A DNA stretch of 64,000 nt from Schistosoma haematobium. Its lineage: Eukaryota; Platyhelminthes; Trematoda; Strigeidida; Schistosomatidae. The translations under genes were made by a program, and so were the position numbers. The stretch's first letter is position 1. Every line of letters starts with the position of its first letter. The notes under the pieces are model-generated. The model was not told the DNA's origin and searched no databases. It saw nothing but the letters and a program-made list of their open reading frames with translations. The stretch spans positions 29,591,116 through 29,655,115 of the forward strand of contig NC_067196.1 in assembly GCF_000699445.3 (NCBI RefSeq), written 5' to 3'. Shown here piece by piece: positions 27,126 to 59,214 of this stretch.

Positions 27126-28212
27126 ATGCATTTATGCAACTCGAATTCATTACACTTGGATATTATTTGGATTAACGCTGAACTACATACATTTTTGCAT
27201 TCACTTTACTCATCCACATCATCACAATCAATATTGTTGTCGTCTTCTTTGTCATTGCCAACGTCATCATCATTATCGTTTTTACCCTCAACCATATCTA
27301 AAATATTTTTCAAGCTATTTTCCTTACTGAGATCATTAGTACGGTTCAACTATATTTTCGTGACATATTATTTACGATTTTACGTGATATGCATTAAATA
27401 TCTACTAGGACAATGTTTAACCCGATACAGGACTATTATGACAAATAAGGATGTCATTAATTATCGGTATTTCAAAAACAACCATAGAATCCAGTTGTCA
27501 TCAAGACGACATACTCACTTTCATCAACATCCCTCATGGTATAGAGAGATAAAAACTGTTTCTGATCGCCTGAAATCCTCAAAAAATATGAATTATGAAA
27601 CAGCTATTTCTGACACTGCTCATAATGAATGTATAAATACTGATGAGTATGATTCCAGTAAACATTTCCGATGTTATTCATATCGAACAACCAGTTCCGA
27701 AAGTAGTTTTCATCGATTTGAATTTACCATGCAATATTATGCTATATTTGTGTACCTATTATTCACTTTATTCAATGTACAATGTATCAATGGTAAACCT
27801 ACTTCATTGTCTAAAAATGGAACTTTTGCCGAAACCACTTCATCGATTTACTCTTCCGACTTGTCATCATCAACAATATCGCCAAATTCATCTTTATCTC
27901 CACCCTCACTAGTAATATCGTCTAATCACACAATGGAAGCATCAAGTGTGGATGATTTATTGTTACAGTATTTAGATTTATCAACTTTTCAAACATTAAG
28001 TTCTACTCATTCAAGTCGTAAAGTACCAATAACAAATGTGATTATGCGTCCACATAGATCTAGACGTAGCTTATCATTTTATATGTCTAATTTAGATACT
28101 TCACCATTGCTTTTAACTCCGTTCGCACAAAATTATTCAATGAAAGCAAGATTTTTAAGCATCGATAATAATGGAACTATTAAACTAGTTAAATCCTATA
28201 AAGATACATCTG
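27126..28212 (+). CDS. FGF-like secreted ligand, exon 1 (signal peptide, furin site, first trefoil strands)
   Basis: The open frame runs from an ATG at 27,126 to a GGTAAGT donor; the exon ends in phase 1 at 28,212. Met202 (27,729) begins a signal peptide (MQYYAIFVYLLFTLFNVQC), followed by a Ser/Thr-rich propeptide with NGT, NSS and NHT sequons. RSRR at residues 311-314, just before S315, is a proprotein-convertase site. Residues 339-362 (KARFLSIDNNGTIKL) match the first FGF beta-trefoil strands, where family members read R-x-G-x-x-L-x-I-x-x-D-G-x-V. The start is uncertain: 27,729 is best for secretion, but the 201 upstream codons are stop-free and include a hydrophobic stretch (about residues 58-95), so an earlier start (27,126 or 27,438) is possible. 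Reading past the donor meets a stop after 17 codons. Confidence 0.7.
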
Positions 28213-30477
28213 GTAAGTTATTGCAATGTTATCATAATATTACTGAGTTATTAGTAACGACTTGACCCTTAGTTCGATGTATTAATCAGTCTCTCATTTA
28301 TCATTGTTAATTATTTAGTGGACAATTTCAAACTGCTTTTTCAATAAACACTTTTGAAATTATGCATATTGGACTAAACTATAAGGTTTCGTGTTCAATT
28401 TGTGTCAGTCCTCAATGAAACTCAACCATCAAGCGCATAGAATGTTGTCACCTCTAAGTCACAAATTTTGTGTGGGAACTAGTGAGCCTATGCAACTGCT
28501 CAAATCTGTAAGGATGTAAATAGTTGTCTAGTGTTGTTTTAACTATGCTGTATGGTATATATATCTGAGCATTTTCTTAACGTAAATGATGCCCTCCCTG
28601 AGATTTCCTGTAATTGTGTTTTCAACAAAGTATTTCTACATCTTAGACATGCCCAAATATTTTGTGAAATATCGTATGGTTATATAATAAAATATGTTCT
28701 CAGTTCAGTGTTAAGTACTTAATATCCTCATGATGAATTATCAGTTTCATATGTACAATGTTTCCATTGCATATTAGATATATGTACTAGGTAGTGTATT
28801 TTGGACCGGTTGTATATTGTTTTGCATTCATGAACTCTAATATGATTGTGTTTTGTTGTGACAAACGATTGACAAGGTGTAAAATAACTAGTCACTATAA
28901 TGTCTGTTCTTAAAGATTGTTGTCATTTATACTGTGGTGATGGATTGATAGCAGTTATGAAAACACATGAATTAGGAAACAATAAAAAGTCATTGTAATA
29001 TTTTCAGTTAGAAAATAATTAACTTTGTAGATCAAGTAAAGCACCAATGACACTCGCGGACAGATTGTTAACCAATCCACGACTAAACATTAATGCATAT
29101 ACAAATTTGAACAAATGAGTAGTTTCATTTGTTTGAATTATGTATGAATCACAGCAGATTTCTTCCTTCGTCTCATTCATAAGAGTTGTTTTTCAAGTAT
29201 AAGTTGTCGATCACTCTACATGTACTACATGTATATTACCTTTTGTGTGATTTTGTAATAAAATTTGACTACAAGTATCTATGAATGAACCATAAATTAC
29301 AAGACTAAACAGTTAGGGAAAATTAAAATACAAATTTTACCATAGACGTAACAGTATTCCGAGTGAATGAACAGAGTGTTTGTTGCGAAAAGAATTCCCT
29401 AACTAGTTCATAGTTAAATTAATCGATACAACTTACTTTAGTTTTGCTTAAATGTTACGTACATATTTCAAGTCTATTGTTGATACATGTTTATTCAGTA
29501 GAACATATTCGAGTAAAATGACTATGTATTCTTGTACACAACAGTGAATTGCAGTCCAGTTGTTCATACATTTTTAAGTTATGTAACTGGTACTCTGGAG
29601 TATCATGAAGTTTAGTGAGTCATATTTATGAAATACGATTTGTCTTACAAAGAGCACAGTTCCAAGCTCATATTGGGTGCTAACTTATTAGAACATCTAT
29701 CAAGTGAAGTTAGACAGTAAACCATTGAAGACAGTTTCATTCTAGTTATGAACTCTTCGACTGTGTGTTTCCATAAACCCATGTGAAGTTGAACACATAA
29801 CATTTACAACCCCACCACTAAATCTGCATTCGAATTGAAGTATAATGCCACTGAATAGTAGTCAGTAGGTGTTTAAATAGTGTGTACTCAGTTGTTTAAC
29901 TAACGTTTCATTGAGAGGAAACAGAATTTGATTACGAACGTGTTCATATTGGCGTTTTAGCACAAACCATCTCGTCATTCTTATTTAAATTTTATCACTA
30001 ATGGTGGAAACAAATCATTGACATGTCAGGACACACACACAAACATAAAATCGTCAAAGCAACGAACAGATGACCTATTTTACTACAAGAGATTCATAAA
30101 ATAAATCTACATCTCAAGTCTTGTAGTGATAAAGAGAAATTCAAGGTCGTTGCATTTTCATGTGAATACAGAGACGAAAACGAGGTCAAATTAATTAACC
30201 GGCATTTCATTGCTCTAGTCTGCTAACTCAGAATCATTTGTCTCTGTAGTAAGGTAGTCACATTTAAACCCTATGAATGTTTACGATAGCCGCTTTTAAC
30301 AATTTACACTTGTCCAATTTTCACATATTTTGATGAACATTAATCAGGGATTTCGAATCGAACTACATTTCTGAGGTCGTCACCAAAGTATGGATTACAC
30401 ATGCTGAATACTTTGTGTTTATTGCATTACGTATATGTCTTAATTGACCGTTGATGTAGTAGTAATGTTCATTTCTA
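28213..30477. other. Start of intron 1 of the FGF-like gene, nothing recognised
   Basis: The intron opens with GTAAGT at 28,213 and runs to 56,141 (27.9 kb). This first part is AT-rich, without repeats or exons that I can identify. Confidence 0.55.
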
Positions 30478-30970
30478 CTGAAATTATATTTATTTATTTG
30501 AATACATAAATATTGGTACGAAGGGGTACCGAATACATATGCGCCACACAAGTCACTTGATTTGTGTGTGGGCTGTGATACTTCCCGGGTGCCCAAACCG
30601 AAGCAGGTGGTTTTCTTAGGGAGCCATACCTGAAGCCTTCGACCTAAAGGTCTAATCCACAAAGTAGTGGCACAACGTTAGGAGATGCAGTCCCATGGTA
30701 ATCGGTGACCAACAATTGGTTCATACACCATTTGTTCCATCAGGATACTGGAGCCCATGTGCACCATTGGTTTGTAATCAAGGTTTTCCAACTCCCCTAG
30801 ATGGACTCTCCATATCCACCAGCCTGGTTAAAGAACCGGACATTCGCTTTTCGTCCTCTTAATTTCGTAAACATCCACATGGCGAGAAAGTAGTACGTAG
30901 CGCTTCCCTGGCAGTGACTGTATACACGTGGCCACCCTCGGACGTACCAGATCATCTTTCGAATATGAGT
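30478..30970 (-). mobile_element. Dispersed retroelement tail, family R1, copy B
   Basis: The longest R1 copy, in reverse orientation. Its 3' tail (tttatttatttg on the plus strand) is at the left and the homology to copy A runs to about 30,765. Beyond that it continues to about 30,970 with equally GC-rich sequence (for example ggtacgtccgagggtggcca on the minus strand) that copy A lacks only because the window starts there. No complete ORF. The 99-codon minus frame at 30,363-30,662 lies inside it and is not a gene. It sits in intron 1 of the FGF-like gene. Confidence 0.75.
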
Positions 30971-32084
30971 TGGACTAATTAGTTACAACCTGAGTGCTAA
31001 TTTCCTAATATTGGAAGGTTTGAAGGGAGTTAGCAGGAAATCCTAGATCTAGGATTTGTATCGACCAAACGTATCTGGAATATTGAGGGAACCAGTGGAT
31101 TTCATCATCATCTTTATTAACACACATCATAGTCAGAGACACAACCACGATCGACTCTTCCTTAGGACTAGGATGATTACACTGATGATCACCAAACGGT
31201 AACTAATATTATGTTCACATAACTCGTCTCCAGATCACCATGTTCACTACAACTAATCATGTGGAAACAAATACAGTCCATCTGCATGTTGAACCACTCA
31301 GATTAGGGGTTACATCTCAACTTGATCGACAAAATCCATAAAGCACTAATAAACCAGACAAAAATGATATTGGTTACTACTCACTGACAATAGTCACATG
31401 AGTCTGAACATTGAACAATCAAAAAAAGGTACTTTTCATCAATCCACCCTGGTTCTAAATCTTTTTTGATCACATTTCAATCGACTGGTTTGACCTTTCT
31501 GTTATTTTTCGCATTAGCAAAATTGAGTGTGTGTAACAAGATTGTTCAAAAGTCAGTAGTAGACCGAGTAAATGGTCACATGCTTCCTATACTAAACATT
31601 TTGTTTCACAGGTAGATGTGTGAGAAGAGTGTGATCATTTGAATGACTGTCAATATGAGATATGGTTGGAGTCATTTGGGAATGAATTCATTGGATTAGT
31701 GATTCTTTCTGTTCATGCATGACTAACTTGGTTAAAATGTGTGTTTGTGTGTTGTAATATGATTCTCATTTAGTGTCACCTCGGTCTAATCTGCTTTACC
31801 TTTAGTTTCCAACCCAATTAATACTTTTAAATAGTCGACAACTAAGACGAAAACGCGTTTCAGTGTTTTCGATAGATCATTGATTTGATTTTAATCTGTG
31901 ATAGTAAACTACTAATCTTAACTGTGTAATTATCCATCAAAATTCCTCAGCTAACACTTGTGTATTTTCATAAAAGTATGTACATTTACTTGCATCGAGT
32001 TGTCACTGTGGTGATCAATGTCACGTTTGTTTAGTCCTTTCGTGCTGACTTGACATAGCGTGCACCACGTTTTGATGTAAGGTG
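30971..32084. other. Intron sequence, possible degraded repeat
   Basis: The stretch 31,000-31,400 is less AT-rich than average and contains atgatattggttactactca, which loosely recalls sequence beside the family D repeats. No coding content. Confidence 0.35.
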
Positions 32085-32195
32085 GTTGGAGTTAATCGAC
32101 AGAAAGACATGAATCAGGTTTCTATTGTGTTGGCACTCATCAGAGGAGTGTGCTCATAATCTTGAGGAACTGATGCTCTCTTACATCGAAATGTC
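32085..32195 (+). repeat. Dispersed repeat family D, copy 3
   Basis: Shares the core ttggcactcatcag then gtgtgctcataatcttgagg with copies 1 and 2, with several substitutions. Confidence 0.5.
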
Positions 32196-34374
32196 TTCGA
32201 CACGATGTCGACTTACTTGAACTAATGACTACCTTGCAATCTGGTCGATAGAACCCGGTCAGCATTATGGACTAAGCAAACATCACACTGGTTACTACTT
32301 CACGATGAATAAGTGCAAATTTCTCAGTTCTACAGGAGACCAGTAGCTTCTAACAATTCAGTGGTTGGGTCTCGGATTATGAGGTTGGGTGGGTCAGTTT
32401 CGAATTTCACAGGTAGCATTAGCCATCTCAAGATTGTGGATGCATCTTGGTGAAGAACACCGACAAACAGAAATCTCAGGTCCAAGACTTTCTGACAACT
32501 ATCTCCAACCACTTTACACACGTGTTTGTACTCCAACAATATGTTCCGTAGGAATTTATTCCCAACTTCGTAACACAAAACTAGTTTGGTTAATTTCAAA
32601 TGGTCCTCAGATGTTTACTCATAAATTACACAAACATTTACTGTAATAATGCAGCAAATAGTGTGATGTTATGGAATTTCATTCTCGATAAAATATAAGT
32701 ATCTCATTTGATTAGTTGCTTGGTGGTGTGGTAAAGAAATATTTGAAACAAACTTCACTAATCTACATAATGGGTAAAATAATGTATTTAATGTATAAGT
32801 AATTGCCATAGAAGCGTTCCTATGATAGCTGGATGAGTTGACTTCTCCATTTGGATATGAGGAAATGTATGTCTGAACATTTTTTGTAAGAGTGCAAAAT
32901 TTATTGTCAATATCCCTATTAATGAATTGGTTGCATCCCTAGAGAAATATCTGTTTCTCTTACGAACATCCAGTGTCTATCGTAGTTCTATATTTAGCGG
33001 GGACAAACACTGTGGTAACTTCAGGTAGACAGTAATAGAGAGGAAGAATTTGAAGATGATCAAAATTTAATCTACAAAGCACTTGTAACGTTATTTCTAT
33101 TTTATATTCAGATGATGTTCCGACCTAAATAGCAGGAAAAAGTTGGACTTTAGGAGCAGCAATAATGGACGTTATCAAGTTGTGGTTATTCTGTTGTTAC
33201 TCACCAACAGTTTAGATTGCACATCAGTATTGAGTAAGACAGTAAGCTTAGAATAACCAATACTCATGTAGTCGAAACTCAACATACATTAATGGGATAC
33301 ATAGGAAGGCTATCATAACTAGGTGATTGTCACTGTAAGAATCAGTGAAAGGACTGTAAAAATTTCAGACTTCCATTCTTGGGCGTCATTTTTGGGCAGT
33401 GCAGTTTAAATGCTGTTTACATCCGGTAGGTCGATAACTCGTGTTGTTTTCGTGCTGGTTCAGACTTGTGATATAACTTGTTTGTTAAGCGCTCATTTCT
33501 ATGTCCTACTGTAAACCACACTTTTTATATGACAAGCAGATGGTGATGTTAGTTGTCTATTCAAACCGGAATAAATAGGGAAATGTTTGAAGCTGTAATC
33601 TGAGGAGATAGTAAGGGACATCATTTAAACTGACCAGTCTGTTTCACCGTTATTTGACTGGATCTAGATAATCGATATTACTGTTGCATTTTGATGGAAA
33701 ACTAGTTTGAATATATTTTACTAAATGTGTCAGTAATGCGTTGATCACTTCCTCTCTAAAAATAAGGAGTTGTGAAAATGCATATCTAAAGTATTTTTCG
33801 TGTCAATCAATTCTTTCACATTTCTCGAATTTCTTATTAGCTGAAACTATTACCTATCACGCCTAAACAAAGTTCGGAATGAATATTAGTGAATTCTGAG
33901 GCTAAAAACAAGGTTTGAAATTGTGTAGCAATCATTCTTGTTATATATACCATCGGTCATTGTATACTGGAGGCTCTTATTGCGACTAATACCAGGTATT
34001 TACAACCGATAATATATCATTTATTCAACTAGGCCTTAGATAGTCTCGTTACCATTGATTCAATGAGGTCCCATCATTCAACTGCTAGTGCGAAGTTCGG
34101 TTGGTCGCTTAAGGTTTCACTTGTATAGTAGTCGATGAATATACTCGGTGAAACTAGCTTGTCTATTGAGAGTTTTTGACTAAATTAGCAAATTGTTGAA
34201 TCAGCCCACCAAACACACCTGATTTACAAATCTACACCATCGAGCTTATATTACAACTTCAATCACCATCGTTATATTGCATTGAAATACAAAGGCACTT
34301 AACCTGAACACACTATTTTTAATATTCCTTATTCAGACTATTTTATGCCTTTGAGTTTTATTCGTCAAAAAAAT
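32196..34374. other. Intron sequence, nothing recognised
   Basis: Two opposing frames of 89 and 85 codons at 32,330-32,599 (-) and 32,389-32,646 (+) overlap each other. Neither has a motif or splice context. Confidence 0.45.
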
Positions 34375-34540
34375 GATCGAAATTGAGAAGTAAGTAGGTT
34401 AGTGGTTAGAATATTCAATTTTCAATCTCTCAGTAGCAAGTTCACATCAAATTGAAAATAAAAGAATCATGAGTGGACAGGTTTGGCTCGTTATAATCTC
34501 CGACTTTTCAGATGAATTCAAGGTCTAGGCAGTGTGGCTT
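34375..34540 (+). mobile_element. Possible tRNA-headed SINE-like copy (S4)
   Basis: An A-box-like taggttagtggttagaata near 34,394 and a B-box-like gtagcaagttcacatcaaat about 40 nt later suggest a decayed tRNA-derived head. No hammerhead region could be followed, so this is the weakest copy. Confidence 0.3.
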
Positions 34541-35389
34541 TTTATAGACGAGTGTTCAATCTCCTATTTACTTGAGAAATCACATTAGTAACAAGGCTTA
34601 AACAGTTGTTTAGTTATTTTTGGTTTTCTGTGATTCCTCTGTTAAAATGATATCATGATGAAAGCTACATTTAGATCAGGAATTTTCATTTTCAAAGGCA
34701 AACTATTTCATTAATGTAAGAACACACAGATTTCATCAAGTGGAAATCTCTCGTTCACTCCTTAACTGTACCGGCCATTAATTGTCACGAAAACATTATA
34801 TTATTTTATCTGACATTAAACGTTCTTCTGGTAGTAAGTAGAACTAATTGATATGCTTAACTTGTTCAAACAACTGCCATCACAGTTCCCCATGAGGATC
34901 TATGAATTATGAATTTTGGAATATTATACGGTGATTTTATTTCTCGCAGTTATCAGGTGATATCAAAGTTATTCAGTCCGTTCGTTTCGGTTGTGTCTCG
35001 GTTGATATTAGACCGTTCACTGGCCCTAAACAAACAAATATTGTTACCGTAGTCTGAATATAACGTCTGTTATTTGTTCAATATTATGAATAGCATATAT
35101 TCATTCTTTTACAACTAGACACCAAACCATGAGAAACTAATAGTTAAGAAGTAAAATGTGGAAATAATACACCCATGTGTGAGTAGACCTTGCTAGGTGA
35201 AGAAAAATTGCATTATATTACGACTGTATAAATTTTAAAGATACGTTGATATGGACATTAATTTTTCAGAACTTCGCCATAGATCTATAGCAGTTCTTTC
35301 CTCAACGCATTGCTGAATTTGAAGTAATTAATACTTGAGTAGTTTACTATCGTAGACTTTCTCATGATTCATCCATAAGAGAAGCAGTC

Positions 35390-35745
35390 GTATTTGTTCG
35401 GGATTATTTCTACCTTGAAACATATAGATAGTTGGATCCATACAGTCAATAGCTATAGCTTCTTTCTCAATGAACGTAAGTCTGATACTGTTCTATGGCT
35501 AATTCGTGTGAAATCGTTTAATGATTACAGACAGTTGGCAGACAGCGTCTAAGTTTGTCATGGTCTGGATTCTCCAGGATGGTATATCTGTAATAATAAG
35601 TACAGTGATATTCCTCTTGAAATGCAAGCACTTGCTGTTCATTGTTATAACTGATGGCATCAAAACCAAGAATTATGGCACCAGATGAAAAAGCTTGTGC
35701 TTCAGCTGAAAAAGTCTGATTATTATTTTTGATTATATCAAAAGA
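35390..35745 (+). pseudogene. Unrecognised decayed coding sequence
   Basis: With two or three stops and frame changes, this stretch reads as protein-like segments: KHIDSWIHTVNSYSFF, DTVLWLIRVKSFNDYRQLA, YSDIPLEMQALAVHCYN, and WHQNQELWHQMKKLVLQLK. Such runs are unusual in the surrounding stop-rich intron. I do not recognise the family. It could be a transposon ORF or a processed gene copy. It lies in intron 1 of the FGF-like gene, in the same orientation. Confidence 0.35.
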
Positions 35746-36671
35746 CTTATTTCTCTTACTCAGTAAGCATAAAATGATGAATTGATAACTGGATGACCGT
35801 TTACTTGTTAGAGACGAAGATCACCAGTGATCTGGTCAGTTCTGAGCGATTTTCGATGAATTCGATAAAATGTGCACAGACCATTAACTCTTCAAATTAA
35901 CCTGGTTTAATTGTCCAGAATGTTTGATGTACTTGACAGGTATTGATTTACTCTGGTCATTATCAAGTGTTATTTATCCATAATATGGAGAGAGTATAAA
36001 GAGATTACTAGGTAAACTAATTTTCGCTTTAACAACTGAGATGCATAAGTGCATAAGTGTCGACCTGATTTGGATAAACTATTTGGATGTATGTGGCTAA
36101 CGTCATTTCAAACAGATTACAAGTATAATTGAAACACTCTTAGAATGTAGAAGAATTTTTCACACTTACTCATCCATTCCTACCCACAATAAACACTTGA
36201 CGGTTGAGTTAAAAGTCGAGGTTTCTGCCTAATCCCCACTTTTATGTATTAACAAATGAACAACCACACTGAATTATCATCGTCATATAATTTCGCTAGT
36301 TTGTATTTTCATCTCATTCCTCAATTGAATGATTTGTCCCAATAACTACATGAGACTTGAACAATAAAAAAAGCCCGATTAACCTTCGTTAGTTTATCTT
36401 TCTCTTGATGTGTTATTCTCTTCCGTTATTTTTCGCTTTCCTCCACCACAATAGATCAAATTATCAGGGAATATAAATCAAAACTAACAGTTGGATTTGA
36501 CATTTAATATAAGCAAATCCAATAGTCTACAATGTTTAACTAATCAAATAAGAAACTCTATTTTACCACTTAATTATAATCACAACTTATTAAAATAATA
36601 TTTACCTAGGTAAATCATTTTTACATATACGTGTTGGCTACGTCATACAAACAACAACTTATATGTTAAAC

Positions 36672-36675
<4 letters not shown>

Positions 36676-36727
<52 letters not shown>
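36676..36727. repeat. (AT)26 microsatellite
   Basis: Perfect alternating AT tract of 52 nt, able to form cruciform or slipped structures. It produces a false poly-Ile-Tyr frame. Confidence 0.95.
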
Positions 36728-36732
<5 letters not shown>

Positions 36733-39700
36733 ACTGATTGTCACTATCTCAACCAAACAAATAGAGCCTTCGGGACAATTAATATTGAAATTCGAATGCA
36801 TGTGAATAGTAAACGATAATCTATAGTTTGCATCTATGGAAGTCATTGTATCGGGGGATTGTATATTCATAATCACTCGCATGGCAACTACGAGATACGT
36901 TATTTTAATCAAATCTTGATATATTAGGAATTCAGTTTTATTTTAACATAATTCACAGTGATTGAATGAAAATCGACTGGTTAGATCATCGTTTGACTGG
37001 TCAGTAGTGTTACATGTATAATAGGTTAGAAACCATGTGTGTTGGAGTTAGTCGGGGCCGTTTGGTCAGGTATTCTTCCATTTACTGTAAGGAAATAAAA
37101 GAAACTACTGTTTTCAATACGAAACTGTGTAGGAATATGCACAACCTCCTCAAGCGGATGTGTTTATTCCTACTTACATATAGTCTATAGGATGTGAGCT
37201 TTCACGAGGTACTTGGGTTTGTGGCTTACCTTAGCTAATAAAATAGTCTTTTTAAATATAATCTGAGAGGTACTCCACTGCAATGTATCAACCAACATTT
37301 GTCTGAACCAGGATAATAAGGCCTTTAACCAAACCACATGGATCGCAAGTTAAACACAACTTTGCACCTCACGATTACTCATATTATTCTCATGTGTCAC
37401 TGACCAATTTGAAACTCTATTCGTTTGACTATAGTTTACAAGAGTCATAGAATGTCAATAATTCGTTGCTCAGTGAATATTCAATCAAACAATCACTTTC
37501 AAACAAGAGACATGATAAGTTTTGCTTATCGTCACATTAGTTGTCAGAACAGTTCTCAATCAAATCTGAATTCATTTCTCGCAGTTTAACTTGAGGTGAT
37601 GTGATCACATTGGGGAGACTTGTTTGCAATGAAATATAAAAGGTTTACACCCTCCTTCTTCTCACCTTCTCAAGATCAGTCGTCATCAACAGTATAGTCC
37701 TGTAACGAACCTGCAGTATACGATATTGGTATCGGTATTACATAATGACAGAGAAAATATTCGTGTATTGATTTCATTAACAACTTGTTGATCGGATATA
37801 TCGTTTTCAGTAAATATGAAACTATTCAGTTGAAATGAAACCAACGTTCACATTAAAAAGTTTCCAATATTTTGCAATAAAGGTCAAATCCATTCTCCAC
37901 AAGAAATTAGAATCTAGACTATGCAAAATCAACCAGTTTAATGGTGACTGCAACATGGGAAGAAAGTAAATAGAAACAAAAATAGTAAACATTATTGATT
38001 TGGCTAATAAAACCAACATAAAAATGCTTACATCTTAGTGGTTATTTTTAGAATATTTCTTACATGCATTGATCATGGAATGATGTATACTTTCGGCTTT
38101 GGTCAAAATATAAACAGATTTTTTGAGTATGGAAATACCACTTACTGGAATCAGGTCCTACGCGGTTCCATTGTAGAACAATATGACTGTCAGTAATATT
38201 TGCCTTCCAACAAGCAACAATCCTATATTTACATGGTATGTGGTAATTCTATGCATGAATCTCCATCATACTAACTAGGGACGAGCTGACTGATCAAACG
38301 CCAGTCATTATAGCGTATGTCGAACTGATTCCGAAATCCGACTGATCATCAGTTGCGGCTTTACATTTCTGGTATAAAATCAAAAATCTGTCCTAGCTTT
38401 ATTAGCTTGGAACAGTTGTAATGTCAGTTATTTTCATTTTAGCTTAGTGTTAATTAATTCATGAATCTTAGGGATTTGTTAGTTGTCATCAGCACATAAT
38501 GAGTACAATGTCAAAGTAAAACAGAAATCTTATTTCAACTTACTTCAAATGACATTAGTAGTTAATTTGGTAATAGATGTGTCATATTTGAAACGAAAGT
38601 CACAACAAATGGTGAATGGTTTGTTAAAGACTATCTCATAATGACAGGAAGCGACTAAAATAAGTGTCAGCATTCTGGTCTGTTGGTTGATGCAGTTTAT
38701 CCAGTTTCGATTCAGTATCATGCGCTACATGGTCTAAATAATCTCACTGGTCCAGTCAAAATATAATATCCAACCCGCTGAACAGGAGGGGAACACTCAT
38801 ACTTATTCCACTCTCGTATTGATCAGTGTTATCTGTTTCCAATTATGTTATCCATTCACTCGACCACATGAACATACGGTATTATAAATAATGTACACAA
38901 ATAACATAGAATACACACAATCACACTAAAAATGTAGACGGTAGTTATAAATTGTAACTTGACTGAAGTAGGAAATGTTAACGATTAGATCCTGAATTAG
39001 TGGTTTCGATAACAGGTAGGGTGATGAGTGCACATTGTTAAGGAGTGACAAACGATTACAAGACAGTTGTTTATTGTTTCCTCAACAACTAAAAATGAAA
39101 TGTTCTATCGTCGCTTCAGCCAAATGTTATTTTTTGTAAACCCGATAATTTTTAGACAACTATAATGTTTTACAATTATTTCTGTATTAGGAAATATAAG
39201 TTACAACATTTATCCTGACAGAACCTATAATGAATGAGTTCACCCTTATTCATTTCTTCATTCATGCATTAATCATTTTTGAGACAAGAAAGTAATTCGA
39301 TAGTGTTTAGTTATTTGTAAATTACAATCTATTTCTTAAAGTGCATACAATTACAAAGGTGAGAGGGAGAGTGTGTGGGCAAAATGTCACAGACATTTGT
39401 GTATACATTTCATAAAATAATCATACCGGATATCATATAATTTAATGACTTTTTTATCATTGAACCCGAAAATTTCTTTCATTACCATTTAATTAGTTGA
39501 TTTTGCATGACTAGGCATTGTTATTTAACTTGTAATTTTTTATTGTGCTAGTTCTCTATCTAGTTGATTAGTTAATTAAAATTAATCAAAATGTTTTAAT
39601 TTATTTGTATCATACTTTGTGTACTGCATGTCTGATATTAACGATTGTACAATGAAGAAATAGATTCTGTGGGTTTTTCTCCCATGTTGTCTACTCAGCC

Positions 39701-43850: not shown

Positions 43851-43883
<33 letters not shown>
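43851..43883 (+). repeat. (ATCA)8 microsatellite
   Basis: About eight uninterrupted ATCA units. Confidence 0.9.
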
Positions 43884-43886
<3 letters not shown>

Positions 43887-45469: not shown

Positions 45470-45665
45470 AGTGTGTTGGCTAGATCTAATCCTTTTGTAC
45501 CACGTAGTTTTAGAGTATGTAAACAAGCAAAATGTACTGGGTTCGAATCGTAATGTAAACATCAACACTAGAATGTAAGTAACTAAAATTGATGAGTCCC
45601 AAGTTGGATAAAACGCACAACCTGGATTCCACTCACTGGTCGCAATCCACATGATCTCTAATACA
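45470..45665 (+). mobile_element. tRNA-headed SINE-like copy with best-preserved hammerhead relic (S5)
   Basis: An A-box-like tggctagatctaatcc near 45,478 and a very good B box, gggttcgaatcg at 45,539-45,550, form a tRNA-derived head. The hammerhead region follows about 40 nt later. The layout is that of Sm-alpha-type schistosome elements: pol III head, then ribozyme. The opposing frames drawn through it (45,362-45,553 + and 45,392-45,652 -) are not genes. Confidence 0.65.
45588..45640 (+). ncRNA. Hammerhead ribozyme relic
   Basis: TTGATGAGTCCC, a short loop, TGGAT, AAAACGC and then cctggattccac align with the schistosome hammerhead: CUGAUGAG, stem II, CGAAACGC, and the conserved downstream strand. 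Stem II (TCC with GGA) still pairs. Core changes (C3 to U, GAAA to AAAA, and loss of the GUC cleavage triplet) should abolish cleavage. Confidence 0.55.
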
Positions 45666-48600: not shown

Positions 48601-49285
48601 GGCAAAGTTCGACTGAAACACACTCATATATATCGATGGTTAAAGCAGAGAGAGTGGTTGTACTACAGTTCTTTCTAGTATAAAGGTGAAGTCTGTGAAC
48701 ATGGATTCCGATAGATTCGGCAATATGCAAAAACAAGCTCGGAAACCTTATGGTGAATACCCATGACAGTCATGAAAAAACACTAAAATATGATTTATGC
48801 AAATTTATTCAAGATGGTGTGTGTGTGTGTGTGTGGATTGGTTTAAAAGATTGGCAGAACTTTCCGGCTTTAAAAATCACTAATCAATAAGTAATATATA
48901 TTCTAATGAACCTATTTTTGTATACAAAGTTAGTTTGCCTCATTTTGTGCTCGTTCTTTGCAACTGCAAACGTTTGGGATTTTTAAACGTAGTTTAAGTA
49001 CTTTTGAAACACTGGACTGACATTTTTCAAGCTTTAGTTATAGCCGATAATTCTCAAGAAAGAAAAAGAATCTAAAAACCAGAAATGTATTTAGTCACTA
49101 TGTATTGAATATATCAAATGAAAGAGCACATACTCCTATAACCCTAAACGTTCATTCATATTTTGATCTTTTAATTTTATCGTTTCAGAATGTCACTAGA
49201 ATAGCTATTTCGCACCATAATGATGATGATCCACACGTTCTTTACACTGTCATTGCAGATGCTCAATTTTGTTTACATTACTCAC
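45666..49285. other. Intron 1 sequence, nothing recognised
   Basis: A (GT)9 tract lies at 48,817-48,835. Open frames at 47,035-47,235, 47,760-48,032 and 48,192-48,374 have no motif and are treated as chance. Confidence 0.45.
48817..48835 (+). repeat. (GT)9 microsatellite
   Basis: Uninterrupted GT dinucleotide tract. Confidence 0.9.
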
Positions 49286-50055
49286 TTACTTGCTCCTGTT
49301 ACTCCTCCTGGAGGAGCATAAGCCGACAATCAGCATTCTCCATCCTGCTCTGTCCTATGAAATCCTTTCCAGTTGATATTCAATCTGTTCATGTTTGTCT
49401 CCAATTCTCGGCTCAGTGTGTTCTTTGGTCTTCCAGTTTTCAGTTTCCCTTCAGGATTCCGAGTTAGTGCTTGCCTCGTGAAGCAATTTGATGGTTTCCA
49501 CAATGAATGTCCTAGCCACTTCCAACGTCTTTTCCTAGTTTGTTCTCTCCCACATTAGGTTGTTGTTGATGGTATCCGGTCAACGGACATTTAGTATCTT
49601 GAGTAGACACTTGATTATACATTCTTCTGCCTCTTTGATGATGGTTGTGGTAGTTCTCCACGTTTCATCTCTGTACAGTAGGATTGTGTTGACGTTCACA
49701 TTGAAGATTGTGACTTTGATATTGGTTGATGGTTTTTCTGAGTTCCATATGTTCTTCAACTGTACGAGTGCATCCCTTACTTTGCCAATCTTTGCATTTA
49801 CATTTGCATCGGATCCTTCTTGTTCATCGATGATGCTGTCCAACTACGTAATACTTTCGCACCACTTCCAGAATTTCTCCATCAAGTGTGATTGTGTTGG
49901 TGATGTCTGTGTTGTATTTAAGGATCCTACTTTAGCCCTTGTGTATGTTGAGGTCTAATGCTGCATACAGAGACTGCTGATACACTGACTGTCTTCACTT
50001 GCATTTGTTGATGTGTATGGGATAGAAGGGCCAGGTCATCTGCATTGTTATTTGT
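49286..50055 (-). mobile_element. RTE-like non-LTR retrotransposon, C-terminal part of the reverse transcriptase
   Basis: The minus strand reads NADDLALLSHTHQQMQ (about 50,046 to 49,999), the catalytic x-A-D-D box of reverse transcriptase and its flank. A thumb-domain segment follows: SIIDEQEGSDANVNAKIGK, LKNIWNSEKPSTN, and NTILLYRDETWRTT. After several frameshifts it ends GLCSSRRSNRSK-stop at 49,286-49,288. The order and motifs are those of schistosome RTE-type elements (SR2-like). Everything upstream of the A-D-D box is missing, so this is a 5'-truncated dead copy. Plus-strand frames at 49,105-49,958 are antisense shadows. Confidence 0.85.
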
Positions 50056-50814
50056 AAATTCATCTACTTTTCTATAGTTTGTTGATAAGTAGCAAAATAC
50101 TACTATTAAGTAATTTAAATTGTTTTCTTCGCACATTTATCTACAGTGATCATGATTAATAACTTTGGAAATGTCCTCTCCTATAATTTCACTCACAGAT
50201 TAATGAATTATTAATGTGTATAGACATTTAAGTTGTAGTTTTAACCACAATTTCATCTCCTTTTTCATAAATAAAGACATAAATAGAGATAATGAATTAT
50301 TTTTTTGAAATTGTTTAGCTTTTTTTGGCGGAAAATAATATCCCACTATACATTAGCACGAAAAAACAAAGTAGACAGTTGTTACGTTTAATTAAAGAAG
50401 TATTATTTGTGTTTACAAACGAAATAATGAAGATTAATGAAGATGATAATATGAATAATTCAGTTTACAATGAATTGATTTTGACGATAATAATAATAAT
50501 GATGATGGTGATGGTGATAATGACAAGATTATTAATAGAAAGTAGAATGACCATAATGTCATTCTTAATTGTTTCTAGACAGTAACATAAAACAACATAA
50601 TAAATGACTATCGTTTTTACATACACGAACACCATTCTGATCAATGTGGGAACGGCCATAAACTAGAATGGAATAAAACTCTCGGTTAGGACGAGATCGT
50701 CCTAAAATTGACCATTGTTATTTTCAGCTTTCATAAACTTCTGACTTGAAAGAAAAGTGGTAATTGTTGACTTCAACTTAACTCCTCAAATCGTTTAGAG
50801 AAGAACTCTTGGTT

Positions 50815-50870
50815 TGAATTTTGTACTTGTTGGCATTTGTCAACAAGGTCGATTTGAAACTAAGAATCTA
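50815..50870 (+). repeat. Dispersed repeat family D, copy 4 (fragment)
   Basis: Only the core cttgttggcatttgtcaac then aaggtcg remains, aligned with copies 1-3. Confidence 0.35.
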
Positions 50871-52340
50871 CATGTCTGTTTGGGAATTCAGGCTTGCATT
50901 ACTGACCACCACAACAAATGTTATTTTCAGTACTCTATTCAGATTCCGATTAGCCGGTACTATGAATGGACTATTTGCACGATGTGGTAGACCCCTATAC
51001 AACACTCTTCATTTAGCTGAAAGATTTCGGGAAAATGAGAGTTGAGCACAATACATGTTACTATATCGCATCTCACACGCTTAGAATCATTTTCGAAGCA
51101 CAAACTCCTCTTATGTGAAATCATTTTCTGAACAATTCATAGTCTGAAACTATTGTTGCGTTATGTGTTTGAAAATCAGCAGTTAGAACTAGACAAAACA
51201 GCAGTGGTTGTGATGATGCAATCACTCAGTGTGTAAATGTCACAGTCCTACAATTGGTAATCTGAGTTACATATAGCTCAGTAACAACATCTCTGACTGT
51301 GATATCCAGTGTTTCCTGTCGCTTACTTTCACTCGCTAACACCAAACGGCATGCACTATTATGTCAGGTCATTTTACCTAGTGAGTGTTTCGTAACGTAA
51401 TCAGCATTAATGGTTAATTAGCTTGAGATTGGTTACATTTAAGTGAATTCATGTGTGGCTATGATCGCACACTAGAAAAGGGCAACAAACTAAGTAGAAA
51501 CAATAACTCAGCGACCTTCCACTTGATTTACGTTCATGGGTATACAGGTCTCTGTGAATTACCCACCTAGACTATCCACCCCACGACGGCTTCAGAGCGT
51601 GTCGGAAATCGTGATAGAGGTATCGAATGGACCATAGAAATACGATATGAATTTGAGTGCATAACTAGTGGATTTCCTAGTTGAAATCTTGTTGATAAGA
51701 CCAAGTGCAATTTAAATGGTTTCTTTTTAGAAGAAATATTATACATGGATGATAATTAATTTAGGAACACTAATCTAGAAGATCCTTTATTCAACCCTAA
51801 GCGTTATGTATGGTTTCTTATAATTTTAATCATATTCTTCATTCCCTCTTTATTTCACAAACTATTATATGAATGGACATCATGTATCAATTTAGCCTTT
51901 TATCGTACTAACTAACCAGACAGATTTTGTTCCATTCGAGCATAGATTGATCAAAGTGTTGACTGGATAACAATAATCAAAATATATAGCATTCATATAC
52001 ATTCGGTAGATATACTAGATTTTGAATTGACTAATTCCTACTGTCTGCTTGCTTTATTTTTGTTGATAGTTGTGAACATCTTGTCGTATGATAGACCATG
52101 AAGAGATCTACACAGTTCATCTTTCAACTGAAATAAAAACTATTCTTCTTTGGAAAAATATCATTTACACTAATCAGACGTTTATTTGTTTATGTAATAT
52201 TCTAATCATATGGAAATTAACTCAAAAGAAAAAGTACACTTGCATCTTATTAACATATTTCTATAAATAGGATTTAGGAAATTCATAAAACGATTATTTA
52301 AGTGATATTTGTATTTATGATGTGTTCACATTAGTTTCAG

Positions 52341-52380
<40 letters not shown>

Positions 52381-53639
52381 GACATATGTTTATATATAAT
52401 GTATAGGTCTTTTTCACGGAACAACCATTGATTTTTGTCAGATAATATTTCTTTCCAAAAATTGAAACAACCAAGTTAATGGCAATTGATCGAAAACTCT
52501 CTAAACGACTAAAAATAACAGTCGAAAGGATAGTGGATACTTCTAAATCCTTGTCCGGTCAATATGGTGTGTTGAAACAAGTTGAATTCTGAGATTGTTA
52601 AGTGGTTCAAATGCCTGCCCTTCTCTGAACCAGGTATCGTGTCTAGTAGCAATGGATCACTGATTACTCCAGATAGGGAGGGGCCTAGGTTTATAAAACA
52701 AGTACAACTGAGAGAAATACCAGTAAGTCAGTATGGGATGCTGTTCTAGGTCTTTAAGAACACATCAACTTTCTTCCTGAAAGACTCTGTGGAAGTTGTT
52801 TGGGCCATTTCAGATGGTGGGGAATTCCGCGACTTGTCTACTCGCAAAGAGTAGAGAGTATTCTCAAAATCCAACTCCCAGATAGATCTCCGTATGGAGT
52901 AGTGTTTACTTCACTTTCCATTTCTAAACACAGCTAGTCTTTTGCCTGAAGCCTCAGTAATACTTTTTGAGAGACTTTCTTTCATAATATGATGTTTTGT
53001 ATGCAAAATTATTAGTCATAACATCTGGTATACTTATAAGTAGTTCAAATGACCTTCAACTAAAGAGATCAAAAACATTCGTCTTCGACTACAAACATAA
53101 TTCCGAACATATTCTGTATTGATGGGGTCGTGATGTAAAACTAATACACTTGTCTCTCATTTAACTGAACAGTGGTTCTGTAATGAGGTCAAGCCATAAC
53201 TTCCAGGAACAACGAATTGACGATTTTGTTCTACTCAAATAAGACAATTTTTTAACTCTAATAACCAGACAAACATACTGAACAGTCTATTTGTTTTTAA
53301 TCTAGTGACCACAAAAGTTAGTTTACGTTTAAATAAACGTTAGTTATTAGTTGTGAATTCTCCTTCGTCTTCCCAACACTGGTGATGCTGTCCACAACAA
53401 CGATGGAAGCTTCACAAACAAATAAACCCCTTGAGAATGAAACACCTTCCAAAGCATCCACCTAATCTACAAATTTTCTCCATCATTTCAAAATTAGTCA
53501 ATAGACTTGTAATTTAAATTATTGCTTAAGTAGACTTAACTGTTCAGCGCTCAATGTGAATGTCCTTGATTGGTGCATGTGGCATTAACTGACCAATATT
53601 TCCTCAATTTTGTAGTTTACACCGCTGATTGACTTCGTT
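50871..53639. other. Intron 1 sequence, one probable old repeat
   Basis: The block at about 52,560-52,990 is GC-richer and reads like antisense retroelement 5' sequence (for example aactttcttcctgaaagact), but no second copy lies in the window. The (ATT)13 tract is at 52,341-52,380. The rest is featureless. Confidence 0.35.
52341..52380 (+). repeat. (ATT)13 microsatellite
   Basis: Uninterrupted ATT tract of 40 nt. Confidence 0.95.
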
Positions 53640-53800
53640 TAATGAATTATTTAAGGTCGGCAGGCACTGGATAACTGTTTTGTTCTACTACGGAACTCCT
53701 CCTAAGTGTATATCAACAACACATGCTTAGATCGAGCCCACAATCTTCGGCCATCACAGCAACTGGTTAACCTTCAGATCACTGAATCAGTACTACCCAA
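53640..53800 (-). mobile_element. tRNA-headed SINE-like copy with hammerhead relic (S6)
   Basis: On the minus strand a B-box-like gtgggctcgatctaag (from + 53,724-53,740) is followed by taggaggagttccgtagtag, then aacaaaacagttatcc and cagtgcctgccgacc. This parallels the family order GAGGAGTCCC, stem II, CGAAACGG, GTCC, CAGTGC. Core residues are mutated. Confidence 0.6.
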
Positions 53801-54614
53801 TATTTTGCATTCGTAACTCCAGTCAATTCGTGATTCCTGTCTCACACCAGAGATTTTTCAGCACCGGAAATTTTCTTGTAGGGACTAATCAGTACTGAGT
53901 ACATGATTGTTATAGGGTGGAAGGTAGAGATTGGTCAATATTTCCTAGTTGTTATACAATTTTATTAATCTAAAATTACTTTCGGATAAAACTATTTCCA
54001 TTCATAACTAACAAGTGACCAACCTAAAATAAATTCCTAATCTATCTGTGAATGAATGTAAGCTTATCTATCGTATCATTCAATTTGTCATACACTCATA
54101 ATTATAGCAACAAATATATTAAATAAGTTTCATTTATTTTATGGAAACGAAATTATTACCATGTTTTAAAATCTTTATCACGATTATCAGAAAGAATGTG
54201 TTATCTTTTATGGCTGTTACTATATTAGATAAACACAAAGATCCACATTACCCTCAACTCAATCGCCTATTATTGAACATGCCCATTTATTTATTACTTG
54301 TACAGTTTTAGAACCAGCATATTGAACTAACATAAAATATGCACCAGAGTTATTGCTACAAAGTGGTGGTCTTTTTTTCTGAAATTTATTATCGAATGAC
54401 AGAAATTAAGGAAACATGTCGAAACAAGAAACTGGCGTGACAAAAGTGAACAAAAATTATGTGTGGGGATTTGATTTGTTTAGTTGTTTGCAATTTGCTT
54501 TTTTCTCTATATACCTACATGTCAGCCACTATCTTCGTTGGTAGTTGTAGATACTTTAACAAGTATTTATTCATGTGAGTATTCTTCTTTTTGTAAGATG
54601 AATTATCATTGGTT

Positions 54615-54800
54615 AACATCACGGACTAGCACCAAGTGAAGGACCGTTGATAACCAATGGAGCGTTGAATAACTGTTTTGTCACAACTTTCGTATTCTCA
54701 ACAACCTTTATTTAAGACCACATATGAGATCTAATCCAGGACCTAAACGTCTGCTAGTGGGAATAATACTATAAGACCACTGACTTGAAATCCAACGGTT
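54615..54800 (-). mobile_element. tRNA-headed SINE-like copy (S7)
   Basis: On the minus strand an A-box-like caagtcagtggtcttatag (from + 54,768-54,787) and a B-box-like aggtcctggattagatctca (from + 54,726-54,745) are spaced as in a tRNA gene. Then gttgagaatacgaaag and gacaaaacagttattc replace the hammerhead block. It is decayed but recognisable beside S6. Confidence 0.55.
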
Positions 54801-55304
54801 CACGTTTTCAGTCTCAACTAATTTATCATAATGAGTGACTATCATTCAACTCGACTGATAACAACTATCATATTCCCCATGTGGTCAACTCCACAGATCA
54901 ACGCTTCATTATAACAACTCATCATGATAATCAACTAACTACCGCCCCATCGATAATGAATATGAGAATTTCTCAAACTGATTAATTGATTGATCAGAAA
55001 AATGTGTGGATTCACTTACTTGATGTATTTATTTTCATCTCATGTTAGTGGATAATTAATTCCCATTTGAAATTTGAAGATGTTAACCATAAAACATTAA
55101 GATTAATTAGATAAGTATTGAGAATTAAAGAGTCTTAGTTCTATCGTTAAACAAAAAGCGCTCCCTTACCCTTCGAAATGGTTAATTAGTAAAGTCGTGT
55201 GATTTCACCTTGTCCTTATTCAGGACTCCAATTTATAAGTCTCTGTTGGTATGTGTACATCATATATGGATGCCTCGATATTCCCTTCTAATTACACGTT
55301 CCTA

Positions 55305-55500
55305 GTACACTGGACTGTGACTAATAGTGGAATCTAGGACGTGCACTAATTCTTATTCGGGATTTCTCAGTCAAACACACCTGCACTCCAGTGTTGTTGT
55401 TCATATTTTAGCTCCTTACCAACTCAGATTATCCCGAAGCACTAGGACTTGAACTCATAACATTTGTCACGGTCTCATGAGAGCTATTAACGAACAATGG
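55305..55500 (-). mobile_element. tRNA-headed SINE-like copy with hammerhead relic (S8)
   Basis: On the minus strand a B-box-like gagttcaagtcctagtgc (from + 55,438-55,455) is followed by ctgagaaatcccgaataag and then gcacgtcctagattccac. This keeps the GUC cleavage triplet and the downstream strand of the hammerhead while the CUGAUGA core is altered. Three such copies (S6-S8) lie within 2 kb in the same orientation. Confidence 0.6.
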
Positions 55501-56141
55501 GAAACGCACACTTCAAGTAAGTCGAATCAGGTTTTCTGGATATTCTGGCTAAACTTATTGAACAGCTACTAACTTATATCTAACAACATTCACTAGTTAC
55601 TTAAGTTCATGGTATATCCGAATCTGAATCTATTTCATTGTGAATAACACCTTAAAAGAAGCTTAATGTTTACCATTGAGTATCACAATTTACTCAATTG
55701 TATCTCTTTTACTTTCAAAGCAATTAAATAAGACGTCAACTTGACACCTTGCGCATGCTTGCTGAAATCAGTGTTTTCAGTCACTTTTATTCCTTTTAAA
55801 TTCTCTAAATCGGTTAATATTCTTCCCATGTAAGCATCACTAACAGTCTGTCATGTTGAGATTTAAACCGTCCAACAACTAGAAAATGACAGACACTAGT
55901 GAATCAGTGAAAATTAGGTGAAAGTACATTATCTCATTTTGTTTTGGCTTTCATTTTGTTAGTTTCTCCAAGAGAACGAAATAGTTGTTAAGAAATAACT
56001 GACATACTCCAATATTTGTGAAACCATATTCGTTTTGTCTTTGCGTTTCTTTCTTGTCTATATATGTTTGCGACGCTAAATTTTGTTGTCCTTTGTTCTC
56101 CTGTCCAACTAGCACTGATTACGATTTCGATAATTGCTGAG

Positions 56142-56275
56142 TGGTCAACGCCAATGAACAAAGACAACTTACTAAAAAGTTACTACAACCACGTGATGGA
56201 TCGCGAGTAATCCTGCGTAAATTTGCCAAAAACATATGTATATGTATGCATCTGAATGGGACAGTCTATACAGAG
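56142..56275 (+). CDS. FGF-like secreted ligand, exon 2 (trefoil core)
   Basis: This 134-nt exon lies between a tgctgag acceptor and a gag|gtatgt donor. It enters in phase 1 (the last base of exon 1, g, plus tg gives Val363) and leaves in phase 0, exactly what exons 1 and 3 require. Residues 363-407 include SRVILRKFAKN and NICICMHLNGTVYTE, which align with the FGF segment V-x-I-x-G-x-x-S-x-x-Y-L-C-M-x-x-x-G-x-L-Y. In vertebrate FGF genes the middle exon also ends right after this G-x-L-Y segment and also has length 2 modulo 3 (commonly 104 nt). NGT at 401-403 is an N-glycosylation sequon. The 61-codon frame drawn from GTG 56,141 reads through the donor and is not itself the gene. Confidence 0.7.
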
Positions 56276-57837
56276 GTATGTAACTATTTAATTATGAAGT
56301 TGCCTCAATACATTTTGGTAATTTAAGAATCACTGACCTTGGACAGATATCTGCATCAATTGTTATGAAAATATTGAACAGAATAGGCAGTGTTTTCAAC
56401 TTACTGATCCCAACTGGATAAATACTATAAACTGAAACGCAATCAGTGCTATTCTGTTTTGCTTTAGCTTCTTAGTTATGCGATTATTATTCATTTGGTA
56501 CCAACAGGCACCGAATATGTTATAACTTGTCGTTTGAATGCTTATTGTCTTGGTTCTTTTAATGCTACTTTTTGTATCTGGTTGTCGCTGATTGTTATGT
56601 CGGAAACGCTTACCACTTATACTCGGAACGAGGGACCTCTGCAGTTCACACGACGCGGAAGTAAGAAGATAAAGACTGGTATAAGTGATGATTTATTAAC
56701 CCCAAAACACGACGACCCTATTAGAAAATACACTCATTTATATATTGATTGTACACCCATTTTGATTAATAATTAGAATGAAATCACATTTATAACAAAT
56801 CACATACTGAGCATAGTTCATGTCAATGGAATACAAGAATATCGCATATTATATAGAATAAAATATCATACGAGAAAAGAGAACAAATACTACATTGAGT
56901 AATCATTATATTGAGTCAAAATGGAAGTAACCTTGAACTAAACTCATAATGAGTAAATCAATCGAAAATTGACTTTTCTTTCCATCATATCAGAATATAT
57001 ATGCGCCACACAAGTCACTTGATTTGTGTGTGGACTGTGATACTTCCCGGGTGCCCAGACCTAAGCAGGAGTTATGCTATTCAGCTGCATGGTCAGATTT
57101 CAACAGTTCATGAATAGTGTTGAACATCCTTGGTAGGCGTTTCCCTACTCTTGTTTCAATCTATTTAATGAGCGGTGACATTTAAATAGCACTTCAGAAT
57201 ATTCATGTGGTAGTAAGTGACTAATGAGCATCGAGTTGAGTCATCATTTATTGAGGAATTCGTCAACCTTAAATTTGTTTGATGATGGAGTATAAGTTGG
57301 AAAGTGTCAATAGTCTGATTCTATATCAATCATTAGTTTAGTACCAATCTATCAAGGCTAATGTGAGTTTGTAAACATCCAATCCACTTAACTACCTCAA
57401 CTACTATTTCGCTGAATTGATCCACTTTGTTCATTCGTAAAGTATCATCTCATTCTTCTAAGGCGCAACACAAATGCGAGTCTCTGTTTTGGTATTTAAA
57501 TGTTAATCTTAAAAGACTCTGGATTTAACCAGTTTACTTTTCCAACTGGATTACATATTCTATGTACTCTCGACGTTCACTGGAAATCCGATTAAGTTAT
57601 CGATTCCCGAAAAACTGATTAGGGTAAGCACTCATAATGAGTAGTATTTATCGTTCTCAGGTTTGATAAAAAGCTTGATAAAACTTCACAAGACTTGACA
57701 AAACAAATAGAAAGTAGGAGAATTTGAAAGTTTTTTTAATTCAAATATTTACACACTCAATATCCATTGAAGCCATATAATGAGAAGTTGTTTATTTCAT
57801 GTACATTTACTCATCATTTATTGTCTTCTTTACACAG
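56276..57837. other. Intron 2 of the FGF-like gene
   Basis: A 1,562-nt intron with GTATGT at its start and ttgtcttctttacacag at its end. It contains R1 copy C. A 93-codon frame at 56,495-56,776 has no motif and is treated as chance. Confidence 0.6.
56993..57069 (-). mobile_element. Retroelement fragment, family R1, copy C
   Basis: Nearly identical to copy B over gcgccacacaagtcacttga and on through acttcccgggtgccca, with very few differences in about 70 nt. It breaks off abruptly before the rest of the element. Confidence 0.75.
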
Positions 57838-59214
57838 CGTATAATTAACCAGACACTAACCGATAACTGTGAATGGCACCTCAGAGCATCAAGGCATGGA
57901 ATAGGCTTTGAACGCCGACTAACTGAAGACGACATCACCGACGAATCTCAAAAACACTTCCTTTCTAATCCATTTACTAACGCAACAATCTATGATGGAA
58001 CGTCTCCAACGTTAAATGTAATTGATGAGAAATCCTATACATTAGCTTCCGGTTGGACTCACCAACTGTGGCAACCTGAAGCGACGTGGCAAGTTTATGG
58101 ATTCCAGCCAAAAGGATTACTAGCTGTTATTGAAAAACAAAGAAACTCCCCAAGTTTCCAACGTTTCGTTTCAATGCATAAAGAAGGTTCCAATCAGTCG
58201 GACGTAAATAGCACCTCAACAATATCTCCATCATCCTCAAGTAATACTGTGAAAATAGGTTCACAAGAAATGTTAGTTTTAGAAGCGCCTGCCTATCACT
58301 TCAACACACTGCATCACAAAGCAAAACTTAAGCACTGTAGCATGCTGAAAAATAAACTTGCAAAACTCGTACAAACAGAATTGCTTATGAGTTTACAAAT
58401 CCTAGATAAATATAGACAAGCATTTCGGGATTTCAAACTTCTTATTAACAAACATTCAATGACTAATATTAATAAGGTAACATCAAATACTCTAGCGGAA
58501 CTGCTAGATCAGTGGTTGATGCTCCTGGACTATAAATGGCGCCAGACAATTAGATTAACCTACAAAACAGACTCAATGTCCAATTACCAAGTGGACAATT
58601 GTTCGTTGAGTTTCAAATCATCGTTCGAGATAAACACTGTTGGTAATGATAGTGATGATAGAATACTAGTTAAATTTTATGAAACACAACTGAAAACAAA
58701 GATATATTATGATCTATTTGAAATTGTACAGGATATAGTCCAGTGGACTGGCGAACAAAAACGGCATTGGCTACAGAACCCACGGGTTATGAAATTATTT
58801 CATTATTTACATATCAAATGTCCATCGCCAAAAAAGTTGAGGCAAGCCTCATTCATATTAAGACAATATCTACCAAATTACTCACCAGAAGTCATTCATT
58901 CCAAGAATAATTTTCATTTTGGTCTCATGGGTAACTTGGAGCCAGCAACATTTAAAAAGCTCTTAGCACATGACATTAAATTAGCTAACAAACTAATTGA
59001 CCGGGCTGTTTATATGAAATTTGAAGAGTATTATTTTTGGCCGATATTACGACATGTAAATACGAAAGCGATCGTGGAACACTCGATTTTCTTTGAAAAT
59101 GATGTGCGCAATGAAATCAAACAAATGCCTTCGAATAGCATGTGCTACAGGCTATTTATGAGGAGCTGGAAATTTTATAGAGAAAATGATTCACCTAGAT
59201 CATGTTTAAAATAA
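57838..59214 (+). CDS. FGF-like secreted ligand, exon 3 (last trefoil strands and long C-terminal tail)
   Basis: The exon starts after a strong acceptor in phase 0 and ends at TAA 59,212-59,214. It encodes residues 408-865 of the joined 865-residue frame (664 residues if translation starts at 27,729). QTLTDNCEW at 412-420 matches the conserved FGF cysteine segment (x-x-D-E-C-x-F). After an expanded loop of about 58 residues, WQVYGFQPKGLL at 491-502 and the distal SFQRF match the FGF ending W-Y-V-x-L-x-x-x-G and F-L. Residues from about 520 to 865 are a basic, partly helical-looking tail with five cysteines that I cannot assign to any family. Several N-glycosylation sequons (NQT, NAT, NQS, NST) support secretion. 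In the 57,799 frame the first 13 residues come from the intron and should be removed. Confidence 0.75.
   Translation, partial: RIINQTLTDNCEWHLRASRHGIGFERRLTEDDITDESQKHFLSNPFTNATIYDGTSPTLNVIDEKSYTLASGWTHQLWQPEATWQVYGFQPKGLLAVIEKQRNSPSFQRFVSMHKEGSNQSDVNSTSTISPSSSSNTVKIGSQEMLVLEAPAYHFNTLHHKAKLKHCSMLKNKLAKLVQTELLMSLQILDKYRQAFRDFKLLINKHSMTNINKVTSNTLAELLDQWLMLLDYKWRQTIRLTYKTDSMSNYQVDNCSLSFKSSFEINTVGNDSDDRILVKFYETQLKTKIYYDLFEIVQDIVQWTGEQKRHWLQNPRVMKLFHYLHIKCPSPKKLRQASFILRQYLPNYSPEVIHSKNNFHFGLMGNLEPATFKKLLAHDIKLANKLIDRAVYMKFEEYYFWPILRHVNTKAIVEHSIFFENDVRNEIKQMPSNSMCYRLFMRSWKFYRENDSPRSCLK

Follow-up and report, generated by a model that had tools for sequence, protein, structure and literature searches.

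A conserved fluke gene with FGF-type intron sites: a likely divergent FGF-family gene in Schistosoma haematobium

Does Schistosoma haematobium encode an FGF of its own, and is its gene carried by a 64,000-nucleotide stretch of contig NC_067196.1 (positions 29,591,116 to 29,655,115; hereafter the window)? The FGF receptors (FGFRs) FGFRA and FGFRB of schistosomes are tied to stem cells, no native ligand is known for them and host FGF has been proposed to take this role (PMC9257043, PMC6426264, PMC7973109). The same was proposed for Echinococcus, where no native FGF ligand was known and host FGF was suggested to drive the receptors (PMC6426264), and a 2024 paper on Fasciola repeats the statement on the missing native ligand of Echinococcus (PMC11161113). 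A planarian paper mentions 'planarian EGF or FGF ligands' in passing, with none named in that passage (PMC8219383). A reading made from the letters of the window alone (the sequence-only reading) had joined three separated open segments into one gene for an FGF-like ligand. Our analyses favor this proposal: we consider it likely that the locus belongs to the FGF family, has diverged strongly and carries an extra C-terminal domain that is conserved; its product would be the worm's own FGFR ligand.

The three segments are one gene. Joined through GT and AG sites (27,126-28,212, 56,142-56,275 and 57,838-59,214), they are in frame, with phase 1 at the first and phase 0 at the second junction, as the sequence-only reading had proposed, and the FGF-type motifs that it had listed are present in the joined protein. 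In a protein homolog search, three of the homologs aligned over the entire joined query (100%), with identities of 87-95%. Because homologous predicted proteins were found in relatives, the gene is more than a product of chance. Nine such proteins came from the first search and two more from the second (a third gave four rows, none of them new), which makes at least 11 from 10 other fluke species: S. bovis, S. spindalis, S. mansoni, S. turkestanicum (two partial models), S. japonicum, Trichobilharzia regenti and Heterobilharzia americana, and, outside the schistosomatids, two Paragonimus species and Clonorchis sinensis. The closest relative among those found was S. bovis, with 95% identity; residues 1-363, encoded by exon 1, are 95.9% identical to the S. 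bovis protein P0001. No member was found from Fasciola, tapeworms or planarians, in searches that scored only candidates sharing most words, so that absence from these groups is unproven. Ten of the 11 homologs are listed as unnamed, hypothetical or uncharacterized.

The start of exon 2 had to be corrected. Predicted proteins of the relatives read S|ALITISIIAEWSTPMNKD at this point, and the equivalent in the window begins at 56,113, directly after the AG at 56,111-56,112. The sequence-only reading had placed the acceptor at 56,142; this site was rejected, as it would remove the conserved strand ALITISIIAEWSTPMNKD shared by the relatives. It also steps around a frame break, since P0001, P0003 and P0006 match the two halves of the assembled exon in different frames by tblastn, with the break near 56,165-56,185. 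In the relatives exon 2 is intact, and the break in the window may be an assembly error or a polymorphism. Truncated gene models of relatives are interrupted near the same borders: P0009 continues into sequence corresponding to intron 1 of the window, and P0010 joins the shared sequence where exon 3 begins. Such breaks in predicted protein models suggest that the introns are shared with the relatives.

To relate the encoded protein to FGFs, a profile of ten fluke core sequences, of which the filter retained nine, was compared with one of seven FGFs (FGF2, 7, 8, 9, 10, 18 and a consensus FGF), the letters of which agree with PDB chains. Results showed a local alignment of 67 columns with 19% identity and a score of 26.0 (P 0.0036), which was reached by 0 of 600 comparisons with shuffled FGF columns (best 23.9) and 0 of 599 with shuffled fluke columns (best 24.4). 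An earlier comparison with slightly different sets had given 24.3; there, the best of 200 shuffles reached 23.5 and the reversed FGFs 13.8. Similarity to the IL-1 family, another group of cytokine beta-trefoils used as a control comparison only, was not detected; the control profile, built from four IL-1-type sequences of which one is a designed chimera, scored 12.0 (P 0.54). When four full-length fluke alignments were used, the top match was the same segment in all four. The similarity to the FGF profile is present, though weak in absolute terms, and the profile evidence taken alone is suggestive of an FGF relation, not conclusive.

Our assignment to FGF rests mainly on the introns, both of which coincide with FGF introns in site and phase. 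In human FGF10 the acceptor of exon 2 lies at TATGTTTTAG|GCATCCTGGA and exon 3 starts at c.430 (PMC2626586); read against the FGF10 protein, the first intron splits the Ser codon ahead of ILEI in phase 1, and the second follows KLYGS in phase 0. Exon 2 of FGF16 ends at c.378, codon S126, in phase 0 (PMC4190875), in agreement with the site of the second fluke intron, and three coding exons are given for 17 of 22 mammalian FGF groups (PMC7430813). In the profile alignment, which was built without any intron or gene-structure information, residue A49 of the fluke core (the codon split by intron 1, phase 1) pairs exactly with the FGF10 Ser split by intron 1, and E102 (the last residue of exon 2, phase 0) pairs exactly with the last residue of FGF10 exon 2. 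Measured against FGF10, and for intron 2 also against FGF16, the fluke gene has the FGF-type pair, with a phase 1 intron before the strand that follows D-P-x and a phase 0 intron after G-x-L-Y-x-x. By our own count the 69 aligned residue pairs offer 207 sites, and random placement of two introns would hit both in about 1 of 21,000 cases; the test depends on the acceptor at 56,113, which was derived from the predicted proteins of relatives. This coincidence does not depend on the sequence score and points to FGF specifically; it also indicates that intron positions can identify a ligand family where sequence searches fail.

The precursor was then considered from its N-terminus. A conserved hydrophobic segment is a putative secretion signal. 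The sequence-only reading had called it a signal peptide; the leader itself is conserved in the relatives, and its identity as a signal peptide is putative, since the start codon is uncertain and a signal anchor possible. In place of the Met that immediately precedes the leader, S. mansoni and S. spindalis have Ile and S. turkestanicum has Val; because this Met is not conserved, translation may begin further upstream, with the leader acting as a signal anchor. The region upstream of the leader is 14-18% identical outside Schistosoma. Between the leader and an R-[ST]-[RK]-R motif at the start of the core lies a Ser-rich propeptide. This motif conforms to the furin consensus, and the RSRR site predicted from the window is kept in every protein of a ten-member fluke alignment (A7, the source of all motif counts given here) that covers the position (Table 1). 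When S. mansoni is compared with Trichobilharzia or Heterobilharzia, identity is 70-74% in exon 2, vs. 47-48% in the propeptide and 31-33% in the linker after the core strands. The first part of the core shows 28-93% identity to S. mansoni among the relatives that properly include it.

Further along the core, the motif W-Q-V-x-G-x-x-x-K-G had been read as an FGF landmark. Its W-x-V part holds in 10 of 10 A7 proteins. The K-G part was rejected as a family landmark, being confined to part of Schistosoma (4 of 10 proteins, P0001-P0004). The stretch ASGWTHQLWQPEATWQVYG may correspond to FGF strand 10 and TVKIGSQ...LEAPAYHF to strands 11-12. The C-terminal domain matched no Pfam family above the cut-off. 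It is probably helical, judged from the full-length AlphaFold model, in which its local confidence is 50-73 in parts and which is of low confidence overall. Kept from Schistosoma to Clonorchis, it is possibly a new domain.

Compared with vertebrate paracrine FGFs (FGF8/17/18; FGF7/10; FGF9/16/20), the fluke protein shares the core motif pattern (strand, N-G turn, V-x-L/I-R-x-F/G..., I-C-M-x-x-x-G, D-x-C), the two introns, with the sites and phases of FGF10, and a secretory leader, putative in the fluke. It differs in its low identity (about 19% over the aligned part), in 18 extra residues located mid-way in that part, in a conserved propeptide with a furin-type site, in the long C-terminal domain and in being missed by the Pfam FGF family. 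We infer fold, secretion, cleavage, receptor binding and a stem-cell role of the fluke gene from sequence. The precursor would enter the secretory pathway by its hydrophobic leader, and a furin-like protease would cut it after R-[ST]-[RK]-R, which would free a beta-trefoil FGF core bearing the fluke-specific C-terminal domain. Most likely, the released core would act as the worm's own ligand for FGFRA and FGFRB, which mark and maintain stem cells. As an FGF descendant that is conserved and probably both secreted and processed by furin, the protein is a natural candidate for the missing fluke FGFR ligand.

No flatworm FGF ligand was reported in the open-licence PMC literature searched, which was mostly surveyed at listing level; within that literature an FGF-family member of flukes is unreported, in a group said to lack FGFs. 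The nearest case is the hypothetical protein EmuJ_000840500 of Echinococcus, also a flatworm protein, with a far-below-threshold SMART match to FGF that was set aside by its authors (PMC6426264). It is possibly the cestode counterpart of the fluke gene. On balance we lean towards a wider reading, in which an FGF ligand persisted in flukes, and perhaps in flatworms generally, while diverging past detection, with a furin-released core fused to a new C-terminal domain and serving as native FGFR ligand. A native ligand, if true, would change the host-FGF model, as worms would not need to depend on host FGF; it would also provide a named target for RNA interference and a query with which FGFs still missing from tapeworms and planarians might be found.

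Several results weigh against an FGF ligand. Pfam FGF (PF00167) gave no match for the window join and seven relatives up to E 10, and a PDB sequence search found no FGF; both returned only sub-threshold matches to unrelated families. A PF00167 scan of the S. haematobium genome (400,267,458 bases, 163 contigs) gave 0 matches, and the control genomes were silent too. We treat the missing Pfam match as a detection limit and not as proof of another family. The full-length fluke alignments gave P values of only 0.016, 0.016, 0.031 and 0.078, and the profile match is confined to the initial two thirds of the FGF core, leaving the third lobe unmatched. An FGF hidden Markov model run unfiltered on 11 single proteins scored -3.3 to 3.1 bits, with the best match in the exon 2/3 segment in eight proteins, in exon 1 in two (P0007, P0009) and nowhere in P0010. 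Among 200 shuffles per protein, 1 (P0011) to 44 (P0009) equalled this score, and in the reciprocal test, with 500 shuffles, FGF8 was equalled or beaten by 1, FGF18 by 34 and the consensus FGF by 67. AlphaFold models of full-length P0003 from S. mansoni and of the core were both of low confidence (mean predicted local distance difference test, pLDDT, 35.4 and 34.8), and Foldseek and VIA-align searches with them list no FGF. The core model has short strands roughly where several FGF strands are expected, at a confidence too low to weigh. Because of this low confidence, the search lists weigh neither way, and structure prediction decides nothing on the twelve-strand beta-trefoil.

The chief rival to ligand function is a descendant of an FGF gene that is no FGFR agonist, and would be, for instance, an antagonist, a matrix-bound factor or a protein acting via its C-terminal domain. 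Conservation of this large domain as far as Clonorchis would fit such a role, as would the 18 extra residues and the unmatched third lobe. Yet leader and furin-type site are kept in all proteins that include them, the core encoded by exons 2 and 3 is more conserved than propeptide and linker, and the worms retain FGF receptors according to the papers cited above; we regard a non-agonist as unlikely.

We hold it about equally improbable that the secreted fluke protein has no relation to FGF, being another beta-trefoil such as a ricin-type lectin or of a different fold, and resembles FGF by chance. The S. mansoni homolog P0003 is publicly named 'Ricin B-type lectin domain-containing protein', which also speaks against an FGF, and the silent Pfam and PDB searches and the lack of a confident fold from the models agree with an unrelated protein. 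Against it, the profile score exceeds 1199 of 1199 shuffles of two designs, both introns occupy FGF sites in the same phases, and the IL-1 family gave no match. The public name is the only likeness to ricin-type lectins, which were compared by Pfam only: no lectin family appeared up to E 10 for the window join and seven relatives. For P0003 itself the name is without a supporting Pfam lectin match and may be misleading. With profile and introns agreeing, the gene is best read as one for an FGF-like ligand.

That the gene is broken in S. haematobium, with a working copy only in relatives, is very improbable. The two reading frames of the assembled exon 2 would speak for it; against it, the frames of exon 1 (362 codons) and exon 3 (458 codons) are open and about 96% identical to S. 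bovis, and a single break in a short one-base run is a common assembly error.

Table 1. Features of the FGF-like gene, in window positions
Feature	Positions	Strand	Basis and remarks
Exon 1	27126..28212	+	Open frame, GT donor, phase 1; holds upstream region, hydrophobic leader, propeptide, furin-type site and first core strands
Hydrophobic leader (signal peptide or signal anchor)	27735..27788	+	Hydrophobic segment also in relatives
Furin-type site RSRR	28056..28067	+	R-[ST]-[RK]-R in 6/6 A7 proteins including the stretch, also in P0009
FGF core, first part, with FLSIDNNGTI	28068..28212	+	Profile alignment to FGF starts here
Intron 1 (27.9 kb), phase 1	28213..56112	+	GTAAGT donor; AG at 56,111-56,112 and frame from relatives' proteins
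Exon 2, core strands ALITISII... to GTVYTE	56113..56275	+	tblastn of P0001, P0003, P0006; frame break as assembled
Exon 2, version of the sequence-only reading	56142..56275	+	Frame-consistent join, but omits strand conserved in relatives; probably not the true acceptor
Intron 2, phase 0	56276..57837	+	GTATGT donor, TTTACACAG acceptor
Exon 3: remaining core, linker, C-terminal domain, stop	57838..59214	+	476-aa open frame; 96.3% identical to P0001 (S. bovis)
DNCEW, opposite FGF KDCVF/DEC(F)	57862..57876	+	Profile alignment; C-E-W in 10/10 A7 proteins
ASGWTHQLWQPEATWQVYG, third-lobe strands	58045..58101	+	Conserved in 10/10 A7 proteins apart from single residues
TVKIGSQ...LEAPAYHF, proposed last trefoil hairpin	58246..58302	+	Located by sequence
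C-terminal domain, about 300 aa	58303..59211	+	30-32% identity from S. mansoni to Clonorchis and Paragonimus

Both introns contain one copy of an 86-base direct repeat (30531-30616 in intron 1 and 56993-57078 in intron 2; 91% identical), which is probably a dispersed fluke repeat. An Rfam search gave zero matches. Elsewhere in the window, an open frame on the plus strand (994-1377), for which Pfam returned only sub-threshold matches to other families and no confirmation, presumably resembles an RSBN1-type exon. On the minus strand, an open frame at 63152-63628 carries a Pfam L51/S25/CI-B8 domain (E 7.2e-10), and we take it to be, probably, the gene for mitochondrial ribosomal protein L43.

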